Position numbers and translations under genes: made by a program
Assembly (NCBI GenBank): GCA_009780695.1
Contig: WQZN01000008.1
Location: 50,738-114,737 of the forward strand
Origin: Microbacteriaceae bacterium
GTDB taxonomy: Bacteria > Actinomycetota > Actinomycetes > Actinomycetales > Microbacteriaceae
Length of the DNA: 64,000 bases
Direction: 5' to 3'
The notes under the pieces: model-generated
Database searches by the model: none
Seen by the model: only the letters and a program-made list of their open reading frames with translations
What the model was told of the DNA's origin: nothing
Shown: piece by piece, positions 4,207 through 44,934 of the stretch
Layout of the letters: each line of letters starts with the position of its first letter
How positions within the stretch are numbered: position 1 is the first letter of the stretch

Positions 4207-5211
4207 ATGGACTACCGCTACCTCGGCAACTCCGGGCTCAAGATCTCGGAGATCATCTACGGCAACTGGCTCACCCACGCCTCTCAGGTCGACGACGACA
4301 CCGCGAGCAAGAGCATCCACGCGGCGCTCGACGCGGGCATCTCGAGCTTCGACACCGCCGACGCCTACGCCAACACCGCGGCGGAGGTCGTGCTCGGCGA
4401 CGCGCTCAAGGGCGAGCGTCGCGAGAGCCTCGAGATCTTCACCAAGGTGTACTGGCCGACCGGCCCGCGCGGCAAGAACGACACCGGCCTCTCGCGCAAG
4501 CACATCATGGAGTCGATCAACGGCTCGCTCACCCGCCTCGGCACCGACTACGTCGACCTCTATCAGGCGCACCGCTTCGACTACGAGACCCCGATCGAAG
4601 AGACCATGCAGGCCTTCGCGGACATCGTGCGCCAGGGCAAGGCCCTCTACATCGGCGTCAGCGAATGGAACGCCGACCAGATCCGCGCGGGCCACAAGCT
4701 CGCCAGGGAACTGGGCTTCCAGCTCGTCTCGAACCAGCCGCAGTACAACCTGCTCTGGCGCGTCATCGAGCAGGAGGTCGTCCCGACCTCGGAAGAGCTC
4801 GGCCTCTCGCAGATCGTCTTCTCGCCGATCGCGCAGGGCATCCTCACCGGCAAGTACCTGCCCGGTCAGCCCGCGCCCGAGGGCTCGCGCGCGACCGATG
4901 AGAAGGGCGGCAAGGACATGATCGCGCGCTGGATGCGCGACGACATCCTCACGGCCGTCCAGGGCCTGAAGCCCATCGCGGACGAGCTCGGCCTCACGCA
5001 GGCGCAGCTCGCCGTCGCGTGGGTGCTGCAGAACCCGAACATCGCGGGCGCGATCGTGGGCGCGAGCCGCCCCGAGCAGATCGCGTCGAATGCCGCGGCC
5101 GCGGGCGTGAAGCTCGAGGATTCCGTGCTGGCGCAGATCGAGTCGGTCATCGGCGGCCTCGCCGAGACCGACCCGACCCTCACGCAGTCGCCCGCGACGC
5201 GCGTCGCGTAA
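4207..5211 (+). CDS. Aldo/keto reductase (Kv-beta/YghZ-like)
   Basis: 334 aa NAD(P)H-dependent oxidoreductase with a TIM-barrel fold. The catalytic tetrad is visible as Asp and Tyr in FDTADAYANTAAE, Lys in IFTKVYWP and His in LYQAHRFD. The cofactor-binding end is WVLQNPNIAGAIVGASRPEQI. It is closest in pattern to the potassium-channel beta-subunit-like group; the substrate is unknown. TAGGCT (4194-4199) lies 7 nt before the ATG, so it is probably leaderless. The earlier track start at 4189 would precede the -10 box. A strong terminator follows at 5227. Confidence 0.92.
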   Translation: MDYRYLGNSGLKISEIIYGNWLTHASQVDDDTASKSIHAALDAGISSFDTADAYANTAAEVVLGDALKGERRESLEIFTKVYWPTGPRGKNDTGLSRKHIMESINGSLTRLGTDYVDLYQAHRFDYETPIEETMQAFADIVRQGKALYIGVSEWNADQIRAGHKLARELGFQLVSNQPQYNLLWRVIEQEVVPTSEELGLSQIVFSPIAQGILTGKYLPGQPAPEGSRATDEKGGKDMIARWMRDDILTAVQGLKPIADELGLTQAQLAVAWVLQNPNIAGAIVGASRPEQIASNAAAAGVKLEDSVLAQIESVIGGLAETDPTLTQSPATRVA

Positions 5212-5226
5212 CGCCGGCTCGCCCCG

Positions 5227-5254
5227 AGAAGGCCGCCCTTCGGGGCGGCCTTCT
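5227..5254 (+). terminator. Intrinsic terminator after the aldo/keto reductase gene
   Basis: Perfect 12-bp stem AGAAGGCCGCCC / GGGCGGCCTTCT with a TTCG loop, 15 nt after the stop codon. The right arm ends in TTCTTCGTCT, so a short T-rich tail is present. Confidence 0.9.
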
Positions 5255-5311
5255 TCGTCTCGCCGGGCAGGCGCGGGCGGTCGCACTTTGTGCGTCCTCG
5301 GGCACGGCGGG

Positions 5312-5360
5312 TACTATCTACCCCCATTAGGGGCACAGCCCTGCGGCCCGGCCGCAGGGC
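5312..5360 (+). promoter_or_regulatory. Promoter and leader hairpin of the ParA-like gene
   Basis: A TACTAT -10-like box lies at 5312-5317. The leader then holds a perfect 10-bp hairpin, GCCCTGCGGC (5338-5347) and GCCGCAGGGC (5351-5360), with a 3-nt loop. It ends 15 nt before the GGAGG ribosome-binding site. No T-tract follows, so it is not an ordinary terminator. It may stabilise the mRNA or affect ribosome access. Confidence 0.5.
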
Positions 5361-5384
5361 ACGCCCGAAAGCCCCGGAGGAACC

Positions 5385-7079
5385 GTGACGGACACCACGC
5401 CCATGACCCACACGCCCCACATCGAAGCCACCGTCGTGCGCAGCGCCGAAGGCCCGTTCATCGGGCACATCTCGGTCGACGGCTCGATCACGACGATCGA
5501 GGGCCGCACCGAGGACGGCGTGCGCCGCGACATCGTCCGCGCCGTCGCCGGCGTCGCACAGCGGCTGTCGCAGCCGGTGCGGCTCGTCGCGCGCGACAGC
5601 CTCGGCGTGCAGGAGGTCAAGGTCTCCCCCGACGGCTACACCGAGGCGCTCACCCCCGTGACGCCGGCGACCGGCAACACGATCGACGCCCCGACCCCCG
5701 CCGAGCCGGCGCCCACCGAGGCGCTCGACTTCGACGCGATCCTCGGAATCGGCGGTGCACACAACCCCGGCCAGGTGCCGGCCGAAGACGACGCCACCGC
5801 CACCCAGCCGGCTCGCCGCGCCGCGGCGGTGCCCGAGCTCGACTACCTCTTCCAAGAGACACCTGCGCAGCAGCCGGATGTCGCGCCGGCCGCCCCGGCC
5901 GCGGCCCCCGTGGTCGCCCCGCAGCCCGCCGTGCGCCCGGTCGTGACGCTGCCCGTCGCGCAGCCCGTCACCGCGGCGCCGGTCGCCCCGGTGACGCCCA
6001 TCGTCCCGGTGCAGCCGATCGCCGCCGTGCCGGCACCCCCCGTGCAGTCGGCGCCGGCCGCTCCCGAGAGCCCGGTTGCGGCCACCGGCAACGGCGGCCT
6101 CGAGCCCCTCGAGTTCGTCGACCCGCTCGCGCCCGTCGATGAGCACCCGCCGACCCTCGACGACTTCATGGCGCAGCGCCCGACGGCGCCCATCGCGCCG
6201 GCGGAGTACGGCTGGCAGGGCGCGGTGCGCAAGGCATCCTTCGGGCTCGTCAACCCGGTTCCCGGCGACGCCGAGCTCGAGCGCCGCCGCGACGTGGCCG
6301 CCGTGCAGCGCAGCTTCGCCGGCCCGCGCACGATCGTGGTCATCAACCCCAAGGGCGGCGCGCACAAGACGACCGCGACGATGCTGCTCGCGGCGACCTT
6401 CGGCGAGCAGCGCGGCGGCTACACCCTCGCCTGGGACAACAACGAGACGCGCGGCACTCTGGGCTGGCGCGCGCGCCCCGCCGACCACCACCGCACGGCG
6501 CTCAGCCTGCTGCGCGACGCGGACCGGTTCAGCGCAGCCGGCACGGCCAGCATCGGCGACCTCGACGAGTACGTGCGCGCACAGGGCTCGGCGCAGTTCG
6601 ACGTGCTCGCCTCCGACGAGGACCCGAACGCCACCGAGCTGATCGACGCGGCGGCGTTCGACAAACTGCACGCGACCCTGCAGCGCTTCTACCGCCTGAT
6701 CGTCGTCGACACGGGCAACAACATGCGCGCCGAGAACTGGCAGGCCGCGGTCGCCGCGGCCGATCAGCTCGTCATCATCTCCACGGTCCGCGAGGACACC
6801 GCCGCGAGCGCCGCATGGCTCGTCGACGGCCTGCGCGAGAAGGGCTTCGGCGACAAGGTCGCGAACGCGGTCACGGTGCTCTCGGCGACGTCCGAGGCCC
6901 CGGACCCGCAGCTCGCCCGTCGTCTGCGCGGCCACTTCGGCTCGCTCACACGCGCTGTGCTCGACGTGCCGCACGACCCCTCGCTCGTCGACGGCGGCGC
7001 GATCACCTTCGAGCTGCTCTCGCGCCGCACGCGCGAGGCGTGGCTGAAGGTCGCCGCGACCGTCGCCCAGGGGCTGTAG
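5385..7079 (+). CDS. ParA/MinD-like P-loop ATPase with long disordered N-terminal region
   Basis: 564 aa. Residues 1-90 form a small folded region (HIEATVVRSAEGPFIGHIS). About 90-270 is Ala/Pro/Val-rich and likely disordered. About 313-564 is a deviant-Walker ATPase. The P-loop reads NPKGGAHKTTATM (K323, K328), so the usual glycine before the P-loop lysine is His327. The signature lysine is kept, and LIVVDTGNNMRAENW is the Walker B-like region. The architecture recalls actinobacterial MinD-like proteins in secretion or polar positioning, but no partner genes (ParB, ESX) are adjacent. The GTG start follows GGAGG by 4 nt. Role unknown; ATPase activity is uncertain because of His327. Confidence 0.8.
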   Translation: MTDTTPMTHTPHIEATVVRSAEGPFIGHISVDGSITTIEGRTEDGVRRDIVRAVAGVAQRLSQPVRLVARDSLGVQEVKVSPDGYTEALTPVTPATGNTIDAPTPAEPAPTEALDFDAILGIGGAHNPGQVPAEDDATATQPARRAAAVPELDYLFQETPAQQPDVAPAAPAAAPVVAPQPAVRPVVTLPVAQPVTAAPVAPVTPIVPVQPIAAVPAPPVQSAPAAPESPVAATGNGGLEPLEFVDPLAPVDEHPPTLDDFMAQRPTAPIAPAEYGWQGAVRKASFGLVNPVPGDAELERRRDVAAVQRSFAGPRTIVVINPKGGAHKTTATMLLAATFGEQRGGYTLAWDNNETRGTLGWRARPADHHRTALSLLRDADRFSAAGTASIGDLDEYVRAQGSAQFDVLASDEDPNATELIDAAAFDKLHATLQRFYRLIVVDTGNNMRAENWQAAVAAADQLVIISTVREDTAASAAWLVDGLREKGFGDKVANAVTVLSATSEAPDPQLARRLRGHFGSLTRAVLDVPHDPSLVDGGAITFELLSRRTREAWLKVAATVAQGL

Positions 7080-38338: not shown

Positions 38339-40324
38339 CTACGGCAGCTGCTTCGCGCCGACCATCGCCTGCGACCAGCCCAGCAGACGGATCTGCTCGT
38401 TGGACTCCACGGGGGGCACGTAGAACAGCAGCTGGTAGCTGTAGTCGCTCTCGACGCCGTTCGCCGCTTTGGTCACGTCGATGAACGCGCTCGTCGGGCT
38501 CGACGGGGGCAGCGGGTTGAACTTCGCCGCCGAGTTGAGCAGCTTGTACACCTGCTTCTGCAGCACCGTCGTCGAGACGAGCGCGCCGGCGTCGTTGGTC
38601 GCAAGCGCGATCGGAGCGGTCGACCCGGCCGAGTCGAGATAGGTCAGGTCGAGCAGCTCGTTCTTCGCCTTGATGTCGGCACGCTGCTGGGCCTCGGCCG
38701 CGGCGCCCGCGCCGTCGGTGCCCGTGCCGTCGCTGCCGTTCGCGAGGGTGTCGTCCTTCTTCTTCACGTCCTCGGCGAACTTCGAGTAGTACGGGCTCTT
38801 CGCACCGAGCTTGAGGACGCTCGCGTACTCGGTGGCCAGCTGGCTCGGTTGCACGGCGAGCAGCTTCGAGTCCGGCGGCACGAGGGTCGTGCCGATGCTC
38901 GCCGGCGCGAGGTCGGGGATCTGACCGCCGGTCATCGAGACGAGGTAGGCCACTTTGTAGTTCTCGCGCGGCGACTGCTGGGTCAGGGTCAGGTCGTAGT
39001 ACGTCGGGATCTTCGCCGCCGCGTCCTGCACGACGACGTTCACCACGCGCGGCCAGGTGTCGGTGGCCTGCGGCAGGATCGGGTACAGCTTCTGGTCGAC
39101 CGGCACGGCGGTGGGCAGGGCGTAGCCCGGCTTCGACGCGCGGATCCGGTAGTTCAGCTGGCGCTCGGTGAGGGCGGCCCCCGTGAAACGCGTCGCCGCG
39201 AGGGCCGCGTTGCGGGTGCTGTCGGCGGTCTTCGCCGTCTCGGCGATGCGCTCGACGATGTTGCGCAGCTGCGGCTCGGTCACCGCGGGGGCCGGGTGGT
39301 CGGCGCCCTGGCCCGGCAGCTGGGTCGTGAGCGGCGTCGCGGTCGGGGTCGGCGATGCCGAGGAGGCCCCGATCTGCGGCCAGTAGTCGGAGGAGCAGCC
39401 GGCGAGCGTCAGCGCGCCCGCGAGCACCACGGGCACCGCGATCATGCCGCGGCCGAGAGCGCGCCGGCCGCGCACGTCGGCGCCCCCCGCCGACGCGGCG
39501 GCGAGCTCGCGGCGCTCGGCACGGCTCAGGCGCGGGCCGCGCCCGTTGCTGCCGCCACGACGCGGGCCGCGCCCGCGGCGCATGTGCCGGATGGCGAGGA
39601 TGTAGAACACGATGCCCGCCACGGCGAGCAGGGAGCCCAGCACGATCAGCGGGCCCGCCCACGGGGTGCGCGTGTCCATCGGCCAGGTGAGCGAGATGTC
39701 GCTCGGGGCGGCGTGCGCCCCGTCGCTCGCGATGATCACGCTCACGCCGTCCGGAACGTTCATGGTCGTGGTCTCGGCCTTCTTCCCCGTGAACTGCTCG
39801 AGCCACAGATCGCTGCCTGCGGGGTTCGGGGCGGTCGGAGAGATCGACGCGACCTCGTTGGCCGTCGCGGTCGTGCCGGAGGTCTGAGCGGCCGCCTGGG
39901 TGGCAGCCGGCGTCGACGTCGCGCCGGGCGTCGCCGTGGCGGTCGCGCCCGGGGTCGCCGTGCTGGTCGGCGTGGAGGCGCCGTCGCCCGAGGACGCGCC
40001 GCCCTGGTGCAGGCCGGCCTTCAGCGACTTCGTCGCGGCGTCGTAGGTGAGCCGGGTGTACGGCTCGTCGCCGACCCAGGCCATGACGTCGGCCGTGCGG
40101 CCGTAGGCGACGAACGGGTCGGCCGAGCCGGAGACGTCGAGGGTCTGCTGCCCGTCGATCGCGTTGAGGGTGGACCCCGAGAGCACGATGTAGGGGGCAT
40201 CCGAACTCACCTGGGCCGAGGCGGTGACATCCGCCGCAGGGGCCCAGATGGTTCGCTGGGCGACGCCCACGCCGATCGTGACCGCGGCGAGGACGAACGC
40301 CGCGATGGCAATGACGAAACGCAC
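38339..40324 (-). CDS. Large hypothetical membrane protein with internal lipobox
   Basis: 661 aa. Residues 3-22 form a membrane anchor. Then come an extracytoplasmic domain, a Thr/Pro/Ala linker (TPTSTATPGATATATPGAT), a second helix (PLIVLGSLLAVAGIVFYIL, about 226-244) and a very basic loop. A third helix (MIAVPVVLAGALTLAGC) ends in a lipobox with Cys310. About 350 further outward-facing residues follow. The C-terminal part looks like a complete lipoprotein fused to a membrane protein. The GTG at 40324 is chosen over the ATG at 40381 because AGGAAGG precedes it. I recognise no family; it is divergent from the DivIVA-like gene. Confidence 0.78.
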   Translation of the reverse strand: MRFVIAIAAFVLAAVTIGVGVAQRTIWAPAADVTASAQVSSDAPYIVLSGSTLNAIDGQQTLDVSGSADPFVAYGRTADVMAWVGDEPYTRLTYDAATKSLKAGLHQGGASSGDGASTPTSTATPGATATATPGATSTPAATQAAAQTSGTTATANEVASISPTAPNPAGSDLWLEQFTGKKAETTTMNVPDGVSVIIASDGAHAAPSDISLTWPMDTRTPWAGPLIVLGSLLAVAGIVFYILAIRHMRRGRGPRRGGSNGRGPRLSRAERRELAAASAGGADVRGRRALGRGMIAVPVVLAGALTLAGCSSDYWPQIGASSASPTPTATPLTTQLPGQGADHPAPAVTEPQLRNIVERIAETAKTADSTRNAALAATRFTGAALTERQLNYRIRASKPGYALPTAVPVDQKLYPILPQATDTWPRVVNVVVQDAAAKIPTYYDLTLTQQSPRENYKVAYLVSMTGGQIPDLAPASIGTTLVPPDSKLLAVQPSQLATEYASVLKLGAKSPYYSKFAEDVKKKDDTLANGSDGTGTDGAGAAAEAQQRADIKAKNELLDLTYLDSAGSTAPIALATNDAGALVSTTVLQKQVYKLLNSAAKFNPLPPSSPTSAFIDVTKAANGVESDYSYQLLFYVPPVESNEQIRLLGWSQAMVGAKQLP

Positions 40325-40472
40325 TGGATTCCTTCCTGGCCGCGGTGGGCGGGTACGGGTCACCCACTGGCCAAAAGTCAATAGAGGTTATTCGATGCCC
40401 CTGGGCGGTCCCAGGGCGAACCCTGAACGCCGTCCCTTACTCGGGGTGAACCGGCGCGTCCTGCCCTGCTTG

Positions 40473-40539: not shown

Positions 40540-41988
40540 GTGACCACTGAAGAGTCCGAATTCACCCAAGTCTTCCGCGGCTACGACAAGGCGGAAGTCG
40601 ACAAGGCTCTTCAGGAACTGCGTCGCGAGCTGATCAAGGCGAACACGCAGTCGTCCGACGCTGCGAAAGAGGTCAAGCGCCTCAATACGCGCATCGACGA
40701 GCTGAACGCCGAGATCGAGGAAGTCGGCAGCCCGACCTTCTCCGGCCTGGGCACGAAGCTCGAGAACACGCTCCGCGTCGCCGAGGAGCAGTCGACGCGC
40801 ATGATCGCGCAGGCCGACATCGACGCCGAGAAGCTGCGCTCGCAGGTCGCGCAGGAAGCCGAGCGCATCCGGAACGCCGCGAAGGACCAGGCCGAGCGGG
40901 TCGTCAACGAGGGGAAGACGCAGGCCGCCTCCGAGGTGCAGGACGCGCAGATCGAGGCGAACTCGATCATCGCCGACGCGAAGCGCGATGCCGAGCAGCT
41001 CCTGCAGGACGCGCAGCGTGAGGCCGCGGCCATCCGCGGCGCCGTCGCGACCGAGGCCGCCGAGGTCCGCGCGACGTCGAAGCGCGAGGCCGCCGCCGCG
41101 AAGTCCGACGCCGAGCGCGAGGCATCCGAGGTCCGTGCCGCCGCCGCGAAGGACGCGCAGTCCAGCCGCGAGGCCGCCGCCGGCCTCGATGACGAGGTCG
41201 CTGCCCGCCGCGGCGAGGTCGAGCGCGAGCTCGCCGAAGCCCGCAGCCGGCACGACAGCGAGCTCGACGCCGAGCGCATCGCGCACCGCCAGAGCCTCGC
41301 GACGGCGTCCTCCGAGCACAGCGCCGCGCTGCAGGCCGAGGCCGCAGCGCAGACCTCGCGGCTCGCCGCCGAGCTCGCGGCGCACACCGCCGCCCTCGAG
41401 AGCGAGCGCACCGCGCACGACACCCGACTCGAGACCGAGCTCGCCGAGCACAAGACGAGCCTCGAGCAGGCGCGCATCGCGCACGAGTCGGATCTCGCGA
41501 CGCAGCGCGCGACCGCTCAGACCGAGGTCGACGCGCAGCGCAGCCAGGCGGAGCAGGCCCGGATCGACCTCGAGGTCGAGCTCACCTCGCGCCGCGACGA
41601 GGCCGAACAGGAGCACCTGGCGCGCCACCAGGAGGCCGTGACGCAGACACAGCGCTTCCTCGACGACGCCAACCTGCAGCTCGCCGACGCGATCAAGCGC
41701 GCGAACGACGCCCGCGAGGACGCGAAGTCGATCGAGCAGGATGCCCGCGCCGAGGTCCACGCGAAGCGCAAGTCCGCCGAGCAGGACGCGGCTCAGATCG
41801 TCCGTGATGCCGAGGATCGCGCGCAGGCTCTGATCGAAGACGCCGAGAACCGCACGAAGAAGCTCGTCGACGACGCCGAGGACCGCCTTTCGCAGATCCG
41901 CATCGAGCGCGAGTCGGTCGCCGGCTACTTCGAGAGCCTCCGCGGCGCGCTGCAGCAGGCCGAGAAGGCCACCTCCACCGACGAGTAG
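40540..41988 (+). CDS. DivIVA-like coiled-coil protein with hendecad repeats
   Basis: 482 aa, almost entirely coiled coil. The N-terminus has a DivIVA-type segment (FTQVFRGYDKAEVDKALQELRRELIKAN), which in relatives binds curved membrane at cell poles. Ala/Glu/Arg-rich helices follow. Residues 238-336 are nine units of 11 residues with pattern H-x3-L-x5-A/E. The C-terminal segment (AEQDAAQIVRDAEDRAQALIEDAENRTKKLVDDAEDRL) has heptad or hendecad character. Streptomyces Scy and FilP are related in style. Proposed role: polar growth or cell-shape scaffold. Leaderless permease gene follows 22 nt later. Confidence 0.85.
   Translation: MTTEESEFTQVFRGYDKAEVDKALQELRRELIKANTQSSDAAKEVKRLNTRIDELNAEIEEVGSPTFSGLGTKLENTLRVAEEQSTRMIAQADIDAEKLRSQVAQEAERIRNAAKDQAERVVNEGKTQAASEVQDAQIEANSIIADAKRDAEQLLQDAQREAAAIRGAVATEAAEVRATSKREAAAAKSDAEREASEVRAAAAKDAQSSREAAAGLDDEVAARRGEVERELAEARSRHDSELDAERIAHRQSLATASSEHSAALQAEAAAQTSRLAAELAAHTAALESERTAHDTRLETELAEHKTSLEQARIAHESDLATQRATAQTEVDAQRSQAEQARIDLEVELTSRRDEAEQEHLARHQEAVTQTQRFLDDANLQLADAIKRANDAREDAKSIEQDARAEVHAKRKSAEQDAAQIVRDAEDRAQALIEDAENRTKKLVDDAEDRLSQIRIERESVAGYFESLRGALQQAEKATSTDE
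41251..41547 (+). repeat. 33-bp-period coding repeat (nine 11-residue units)
   Basis: Units such as HTAALESERTA, HDTRLETELAE and HKTSLEQARIA repeat exactly every 33 bp within the coiled-coil gene. His stands at unit position 1 in seven of the first eight units, and Leu at position 5 in the first eight units. DNA identity between units is only moderate, so this is an old, selected protein repeat rather than a recent slippage product. Confidence 0.85.
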
Positions 41989-42010: not shown

Positions 42011-43051
42011 GTGAAGATCTCGAACGCGTTCAGGCTCGGTCTCGTCGGCACGCTCGGCGTGGGCGTCGGCTTCCTGATCCTGACGTCGATCGTCAACCTG
42101 TCGACGGTCATCACCTACATCGGCGTCGCGTTCTTCATCGCGCTCGGGCTCGAACCCCTCATCTCCTGGCTCGAGCGCCGCGGCATCCCCCGCTGGGCGT
42201 CCATCGTGATCGTCTTCGTCGTGATCCTCGGCATCGCCGTCGGGGTCATCTGGGCGATCGTCCCGGTCATCATCGAGCAGAGCACGCAGCTCGTGCAGGC
42301 CGTCACCGACTTCGTCAACCGCGGCACCTACGAGCAGTGGTACCAGTGGCTGCAGAACCAGTTCCAACCCGGCGTCGTCGACAACGCCGTCGCGCAGGGC
42401 TGGGCCGAGCTGCAGAAGAACCTGGGCACGATCACGGGCGGCGTGCTGCAGGCCGGCATCGGCATCATCTCGGGCGCGTTCGGCGTGCTGATCGTGCTGA
42501 TCCTCACGATCTACTTCGCGACGAGCCTGCACAACATCAAGCGCGGCGCCTACGCGCTGGTGCCCGCGAGCAGGCGCGCGGGCTTCATCGACATCGCCGA
42601 GCAGGTGACCGATTCCGTCGGCAAGTACGTCATCGGCCAGATCTCGCTCGCGCTCGTGAACGGCATCCTGTCGACGATCTTCCTCACGATCATCCGCGCG
42701 CCCTACCCGATGCTGCTCGCGGTCATCGCCTTCCTGTTCTCGCTCGTTCCGCTCGTCGGCACGCTCTCGGGATCGGCGCTCATCGTGCTGCTCAGCCTGC
42801 TGCTCGGCTCGCCGCTCACCGCCCTGGTCGCGGCGATCTACTACCTCGTCTACATGCAGGTCGAGGCGTATGTCCTGAGCCCCCGCATCATGAATCGCGC
42901 GGTGGCCGTGCCCGGCGCCCTCGTGGTCGTCGCGGCGTTGGCCGGCGGCACCCTGCTCGGCGTCCTCGGGGCGCTCATCGCGATCCCCTTCGCGGCGTCG
43001 GTGCTGCTCATCGTGCGCCAGGTCGTGATCCCGCGCCAGAACCAGCTCTGA
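42011..43051 (+). CDS. AI-2E family (UPF0118) membrane transporter
   Basis: 346 aa with about eight membrane helices. The family pattern is ITYIGVAFFIALGLEPLISWLERRGIPRWASI near the N-terminus. PYPMLLAVIAFLFSLVPLVGTLSGSA and QVEAYVLSPRIMNRAVAVPGALVVVAALAGGTLLGVLGALIAIP form the C-terminal half. Members export small solutes or act in Na+/H+ exchange; the AI-2 link does not transfer to this protein. TAGCCT (41999-42004) is 6 nt before the GTG at 42011, so it is leaderless with its own promoter. Confidence 0.9.
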   Translation: MKISNAFRLGLVGTLGVGVGFLILTSIVNLSTVITYIGVAFFIALGLEPLISWLERRGIPRWASIVIVFVVILGIAVGVIWAIVPVIIEQSTQLVQAVTDFVNRGTYEQWYQWLQNQFQPGVVDNAVAQGWAELQKNLGTITGGVLQAGIGIISGAFGVLIVLILTIYFATSLHNIKRGAYALVPASRRAGFIDIAEQVTDSVGKYVIGQISLALVNGILSTIFLTIIRAPYPMLLAVIAFLFSLVPLVGTLSGSALIVLLSLLLGSPLTALVAAIYYLVYMQVEAYVLSPRIMNRAVAVPGALVVVAALAGGTLLGVLGALIAIPFAASVLLIVRQVVIPRQNQL

Positions 43052-44175: not shown

Positions 44176-44826
44176 TCAGTACCAGCCGGTCGCCTGGGAG
44201 TGGGCCCACGCTCCGCACGGCGTGCCGTAGCGGCCGTCGACGTAGCCCATGCCCCATTTGATCTGGGTCTGGTAGTTGTCCTGCCAGTCCGGGCCGGCCG
44301 TCGCCATCTTGCTGCCGGGCAGCGCCTGCGGGATGCCGTAGGCACCGCTCGGGTTCGACGCGTGGACGTTCCAGCCCGACTCGCGGTTCCACAACGAGAC
44401 GAGGCAGTTGAACTGATCGGCGCCCATGCCCAGGGACGCGAGATAGGTCTGCGCCCAGGCCTGCGGGCTTCCGGTGGGCACGGCCGCTGCGGGCGCGGCG
44501 GTCACGGTGGTCGTCGTGGCAGACGACGCGCTCGAGGCGCTGCTGCTGGCGCTGGCGCTCTGCGTGGCAGTCGGCTTCGGGGCGGCGGGCACCGAGGCCG
44601 CGAAGTCCTCGTGCTGGACGGAGACCGCCTTGTAGCCGCTCGCGACGTCGAGCGCCTGCGGCTGCTGGCCGGCGAAGCGATCGGTCACGTGAGCGAACTG
44701 CATGCTCGTGTCGGCCGTCGCGAAGCTGTTCGGGTTGACCAGGTTGACGAGGAAGAACCCCGCAGCAGCGGCGAACGCCAGAAGGACGACGATGGGTCGG
44801 GATTTTTTGGAGAAGGAATTGTGCAT
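44176..44826 (-). CDS. Secreted lytic transglycosylase-like protein
   Basis: 216 aa. The N-terminal helix (RPIVVLLAFAAAAGFFLVNLV, residues about 9-29) acts as signal or anchor. A Ser/Thr/Ala-rich linker (TATQSASASSSASSASS) follows. The C-terminal domain, LVSLWNRESGWNVHASNPSGAYGIPQALPGSKM to YGTPCGAWAHSQATGWY, is of the transglycosylase SLT/Rpf-like type with the catalytic Glu in NRESGW. It would cut or remodel peptidoglycan outside the cell. The ATG at 44826 is preferred because the upstream in-frame codons have lower third-position GC (about 73 percent) and the gap looks like a structured leader. Confidence 0.85.
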   Translation of the reverse strand: MHNSFSKKSRPIVVLLAFAAAAGFFLVNLVNPNSFATADTSMQFAHVTDRFAGQQPQALDVASGYKAVSVQHEDFAASVPAAPKPTATQSASASSSASSASSATTTTVTAAPAAAVPTGSPQAWAQTYLASLGMGADQFNCLVSLWNRESGWNVHASNPSGAYGIPQALPGSKMATAGPDWQDNYQTQIKWGMGYVDGRYGTPCGAWAHSQATGWY

Positions 44827-44934
44827 GGTGTGAACGTGGTGGCCCGGGGCCGAGGCCCGCGTCGGAATCTCCGAACGCACGGCCTGTACGGCCGCCTTAG
44901 TCGCTACTCGCCTACCCACGATCACAGAACCATA
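44827..44934 (-). promoter_or_regulatory. Promoter and structured 5' leader of the transglycosylase gene
   Basis: Minus-strand TATGGT (44934-44929) would start a leader of about 95 nt. It contains a hairpin GCGTTCGGA-GAT-TCCGACGC (44878-44859, one bulged T) and a second GC-rich stem (GGGCCTCGGCCC). No Shine-Dalgarno sequence precedes the ATG. Cell-wall hydrolase genes in actinobacteria are often preceded by c-di-AMP riboswitches, but I could not match that consensus here. Confidence 0.4.

Follow-up and report, generated by a model that had tools for sequence, protein, structure and literature searches.

The open reading frame at 40540..41988 (+ strand, GTG start) encodes a protein of 482 amino acids, assigned below to the FilP family. 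An earlier note on the window, i.e. the whole 64,000-nucleotide stretch of Microbacteriaceae DNA analysed here, had placed nine tandem hendecad units with a His every 11 residues at 41251..41547, and these positions do correspond to codons 238–336 of the frame. Seven of the nine units begin with His, the others beginning with Gln (unit 271) and Ala (unit 326); eight units have Leu at +4, the last one Val in its place. The repeat is real, but the nine units are cut arbitrarily out of a longer hendecad rod that covers nearly the whole chain: at residues 60–237 the hydrophobic period of 3.67 residues is at least as pronounced as at 238–336. In the latter segment hydrophobic positions gave a strong signal at 11/3 (3.67) and none at 3.5 (power 8.4 versus 0.1), and a 33-bp periodicity is also visible in the DNA of the gene. 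When a cyclic model of 11 states was trained on 26 orthologues, it spanned nearly the entire chain and had a (V/L/T), d (A/T/H/Q) and h (L) as its core. The protein is almost all helix in an AlphaFold single-chain model. In the DivIVA-like superfamily a heptad coiled coil comes immediately behind the RGYDxxEVD motif (PMC9858780); for this segment the model has a helix at residues 17–61, and residues 1–60 give no clean peak at 3.5. The description of a DivIVA-like protein with a hendecad coiled-coil rod is therefore upheld by periodicity, by domain matches and by a prediction that is helical nearly throughout.

The 11-state model divides the chain into two modules of fixed length, the N-module (~200 residues after the RGYD motif) and the C-module, with a variable rod between them; a single phase break precedes the rod. 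In the window's protein the DivIVA-like head (40576..40722, +) comprises RGYDKAEVD (residues 13–21; motif as defined in PMC9858780) and the first coiled-coil helix up to residue 61; it is followed by a second motif, SPTFSGLGTKLENTLRVAEEQ (residues 64–84; 40729..40791, +), at a fixed offset from RGYD. The N-module proper, delimited by the 11-state phase and the model helix, is a hendecad coiled coil of fixed length at about residues 69–214 (40744..41181, +). Model, alignment and DNA self-similarity together place the elastic rod of ~11 hendecad units at about residues 215–337 (41182..41550, +). The C-module (residues 338–482; 41551..41985, +) starts with EQARIDLEVELTSRRDEAEQEHLARHQEAV and contains the C-terminal motif GYFESLR (residues 462–468; 41923..41943, +); it was delimited by alignment and by the spacing from a TQ(K/R) element to this motif. 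Both ends are nearly invariant among relatives: the phase of the 11-state model runs unbroken through the N-module in nearly all homologues, the offset from RGYD to TFSGLG is 53 residues in 79/80 orthologues where the second motif was found, and the TQ(K/R) element lies 93 residues before the C motif in 54/58 orthologues where it was found. The rod is the only part that varies in length between species.

As a measure of length we took the span from the RGYD motif to the GYFESLR-type motif near the C-terminus, for which 93 orthologues could be anchored. Across Microbacteriaceae orthologues this span runs from 325 to 1069 residues, a more than threefold range, and yet it leaves a remainder of 2 or 9 on division by 11 in 85/93 cases. 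Among 90 Microbacteriaceae orthologues with genus labels, anchored at a slightly laxer score and comprising 61 distinct lengths, 80 fell into the same two classes. These classes differ by seven residues, i.e. one heptad, and the phase model places this heptad step at the junction of rod and C-module. Within genera, 17 of 20 length differences were exact multiples of 11, ranging from 11 to 165 residues (1–15 units; binomial P 1.7e-15); the exceptions were 5, 5 and 40 (33 + 7). When moduli 3–30 were tested, concentration was seen at 11 and its multiple 22 only; quantisation by heptads or by any other modulus was rejected, these controls having no concentration. On a maximum-likelihood tree of the N- and C-modules there were at least 69 changes of length, but length modulo 11 changed 13 times, compared with 52–58 changes for control moduli 7, 10 and 12. 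The earlier note had itself named homologues without the 11-residue spacing as grounds for giving up the repeat; the spacing is retained and the number of units varies.

Ten of the 90 genus-labelled orthologues were off-class, several of them from small genomes (about 0.9–2.2 Mb). Three off-class spans (775, 786 and 940; all 5 modulo 11) form an 11-step series of their own within a His-rich clade. The shortest rods occur in four small-genome lineages (~1.3–2.2 Mb), which also account for about half of the off-class lengths, as if the 11-residue constraint were relaxed there. Outside the family, spans taken from search tables only were 370 versus 359 residues in one comparison and ~55 residues shorter in another family; this is only suggestive of whole-hendecad differences in places, but not in all families. 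In the FilP orthologue from an Actinomycetales metagenome-assembled genome (L049, match 5001–6446), a single in-frame stop interrupts the rod at codon 252 of the match; the frame is otherwise intact. No FilP match was found in 21 of 130 Microbacteriaceae genomes, spread over ten of 78 genera, and in these FilP may have been lost or may have diverged past the reach of the search.

Taken as a whole, these data are best explained, with good though not complete confidence, by a FilP-type protein with an elastic rod, made up of whole hendecads, between its two fixed modules; changes that break register would be selected against. The DivIVA-like heads would dimerise two parallel chains, whose helices would form a nearly straight and presumably stiff rod linking the N-module to the C-module. 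Eleven residues correspond to about three helical turns (11 × 98.2 degrees = 1080 degrees). Because three turns are complete, gain or loss of a whole hendecad would leave the hydrophobic stripe unbroken and would keep the orientation of the C-module to the N-module, at ~1.6 nm per unit. Only rare single-heptad (7-residue) steps near the junction of rod and C-module would escape the selection. By analogy with Streptomyces coelicolor FilP, the cellular function being known only for Streptomyces, the rods would join into filaments, probably at the cell pole with Wag31/DivIVA. Rods of the S. coelicolor protein are 37 nm long and associate into protofilaments whose repeat is 60 nm (PMC6599971); at ~1.6 nm per unit, the calculated motif-to-motif span is ~67 nm for the window's protein and 48–159 nm in the family.

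The DNA of the rod indicates how its length may change. Identity at lags of 33k bases (whole multiples of 33) was 0.52 compared with 0.33 at control lags, and the units therefore arise by tandem duplication; gene length would change when 33-bp units are duplicated or lost in register. This same self-similarity, with neighbouring units often the most alike, and the within-genus steps of one to 15 units are what would be expected if quantisation were purely mutational, produced by slippage or unequal recombination in a 33-bp tandem array with register irrelevant. We regard that account as unlikely, although it is the most serious of the alternatives. A 33-bp period (0.45 versus 0.35) is present in the DNA of the N-module too, and yet the length of this module hardly varies. 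Segments of 66 nt in rod DNA reach 95% identity in the longest rods, but in many genes the units have diverged widely, and in the window's gene the best 66-nt segment is 71% identical. Neutral in-frame insertions and deletions would be expected there, yet nearly all differences are whole hendecads. The mutational mechanism and selection on register can act together.

A second alternative concerns the fold. AlphaFold single-chain models of two orthologues were nearly all helix, with highest confidence in the N- and C-modules and a break near the middle of the chain; such models do not show the parallel dimer. The break could be taken to mean that the chain doubles back into a hairpin, antiparallel as in the arms of SMC or Rad50, with the N-module against the C-module and the variable rod distal. 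However, it moves with the chain midpoint in the second orthologue and was rejected as a modelling artefact; the pairing register differs by ~14 residues between the two, as expected for a lone chain folded in half by the program. The pTM values were only 0.42 and 0.38, and a structure search with the single-chain model returned nothing significant (best E 0.44). The 37 nm of Streptomyces FilP rods, in addition, equals the full unfolded rod length (PMC6599971). A hairpin is thus improbable by comparison with the parallel rod that we favour.

The His row that first drew attention to this segment (41251..41547, +) needs a separate explanation. The array His occupy residues 238, 249, 260, 282, 293, 304 and 315, and His359 is again in phase, so that 8/10 His of the protein fall in the same phase of 11 (binomial P ~2e-6); the phase is not due to chance, since none of 100,000 shuffles of residues 201–345 reached seven His in one phase. 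His collects at core position d (h being Leu) in the window's protein, and it does so too in one clade comprising five genera. Proteins of this clade have 22–46 His and units such as RAEHDEKITRE (RAEHDxxIxRE); this one core position holds 14–31 of the rod His in four genera and 8/17 in the fifth. Three genera have long runs of near-identical RAEHDEKITRE-like His units, with up to 46 His per protein. In a few other genera His collects at h, and most other orthologues have few rod His, at other positions. Around the window's array the model register is shifted by four residues relative to the flanks, and whether its His is called d or h therefore depends on the register drawn; under either register, His and the next Leu are 33 degrees apart, on the same face.

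Seven His in register, and the return of a similar unit in the His-rich clade, are what a pH sensor or a metal-binding ladder steering rod packing might look like; the earlier note had suggested that the stripe could sense pH or bind metal. Conservation of the stripe was nevertheless rejected: in two congeners the rod is three units shorter, the stripe positions are mainly Gln and only two stripe His are shared, and in most orthologues the few rod His are placed elsewhere. One His per chain per unit at 1.6-nm spacing would, moreover, give only a two-His site across the dimer without other ligands. A functional sensor or ladder is accordingly very improbable, and a conserved one unlikely. Given that the congeners mainly have Gln there, the His row is, judged from these sequence comparisons, an expansion specific to this lineage, at a polar position on the edge of the core; a local form of the unit, in which the core edge by the Leu stripe carries His or Gln, would have expanded with the repeat in this species.

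The assignment to FilP rests on several lines of evidence. The N-terminus matches the Pfam DivIVA domain above its cut-off (1.7e-7) and the TIGR03544 DivI1A domain with 29.3 bits against a cut-off of 22. The RGYDxxEVD motif of the DivIVA-like superfamily occurs once; membership of PolyDIV, which has two to eight such motifs per chain (PMC9858780), was rejected on this basis. The FilP family has been defined by two motifs, located where the first and the second coil begin, and its criteria also include filaments that form spontaneously in vitro (PMC2680258). Here the pair RGYDKAEVD and SPTFSGLGTKLENTLRVAEEQ corresponds to RGYDRAQVD and EPSYAGLGARVEKILRLAEEE of Streptomyces FilP; the second motif, of form PTFSGLGxxLExxLRxAEEQ, is common to both proteins, with PSYAGLGARVEKILRLAEEEA as the Streptomyces counterpart. 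As in the family definition, the chain has a coiled-coil rod of more than 80 residues and no other known domain. In five Streptomyces genomes the best match was the ORF of ~332 amino acids that lies beside Scy and is FilP, and Streptomyces FilP searched back against the window's genome had this gene as its only significant match; the two are thus reciprocal best matches, at a low identity of 26–32%. A PDB sequence search found no relative. That the protein is instead an orthologue of DivIVA/Wag31 or Scy can be dismissed as highly improbable, since its weak matches to the NCBIfam models for Wag31 (NF050102, 39.5 bits) and Scy (NF041483, 25.5 bits) are far below the cut-offs (260 and 1040), DivIVA is better matched by a separate 225-aa gene in the window's genome, and Scy is only the second, much weaker match in Streptomyces. 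From its motifs, searches and models, then, the protein is classified as FilP-family, an intermediate-filament-like cell-scaffold type, and not as Wag31 or Scy.

The gene order is also preserved: a YbbN-like thioredoxin/TPR protein, a 680-aa membrane/lipoprotein ORF, this gene and an AI-2E family transporter (42011..43051, +; Pfam 8.8e-57; directly downstream) were found in this arrangement in 14/14 loci examined, which span Gryllotalpicola, Humibacter, Leifsonia, Cryobacterium and others. Scy is located next to FilP; among the flanking genes searched here, no FilP-like neighbour was found. The 680-aa ORF (38339..40381, −) combines a membrane-protein half with an internal lipobox-like LAGCSS and an SCO2278-like lipoprotein domain; the join of the two halves seems to be conserved, as single tblastn matches cover most of its length in 14/14 related loci. 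Further downstream, a 249-aa ORF (44176..44925, −) has a signal-like N-terminus and a C-terminus resembling small secreted lytic transglycosylase-like domains; it has no Pfam match and is kept in most related loci.

Hendecads as such are not new: the earlier note knew of no description of this repeat, but FilP and Scy have been published as hendecad-rich DivIVA-like proteins with family lengths from < 200 to > 1000 residues (PMC9858780). What appears to be new is the strict 11-residue quantisation of length, of which we found no statement in the open-access literature searched; nor did that literature contain a paper linking FilP with Microbacteriaceae. We tentatively suggest that the Microbacteriaceae FilP rod might be an evolvable molecular spacer, free in length (~50–160 nm) but fixed in rotational register, that holds the contact surfaces of head and tail at a constant relative angle and lets filament spacing be tuned in 1.6-nm steps through the copy number of a 33-bp unit. 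Hendecad coiled coils have been little explored, and ~60 natural rod lengths on an 11-residue lattice are a ready experimental series. With it one could test how rod length and phase determine spacing in an intermediate-filament-like cytoskeleton of bacteria, and ask whether selection preserves the phase of a coiled coil and not its sequence.

Among known systems the closest is FilP of the S. coelicolor SCO5396 family (PMC2680258, PMC6599971), which shares the DivIVA-like head, the second N-terminal motif, the reciprocal best match, an Ala-rich hendecad coiled-coil rod and a conserved C-terminal helix. Streptomyces FilP is, however, much shorter, with a matched span of 268 residues in examples from search tables compared with 449 in the window's protein and up to 1069 in its relatives; and it has Scy beside it, where the neighbours here are the AI-2E transporter and the YbbN-like protein. 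Scy also combines a DivIVA-like motif with a very long hendecad rod, but the window's protein falls far under the Scy cut-off, and Scy is restricted to Streptomycetales (PMC9858780). Wag31/DivIVA has the same RGYDxxEVD head but a short coil, and is a separate gene in the window's genome. As for Scy's own periodicity, Walshaw is said to have described in 2010 a higher repeat of 51 residues. A parallel for the quantisation comes from phytochrome-linked diguanylate cyclases and similar sensors, in which coiled-coil linkers are reportedly likewise limited to whole repeats (PMC9587094); those are heptads in a signalling linker, whereas in FilP the unit is the hendecad, the element is a structural rod and the range of lengths is far wider.
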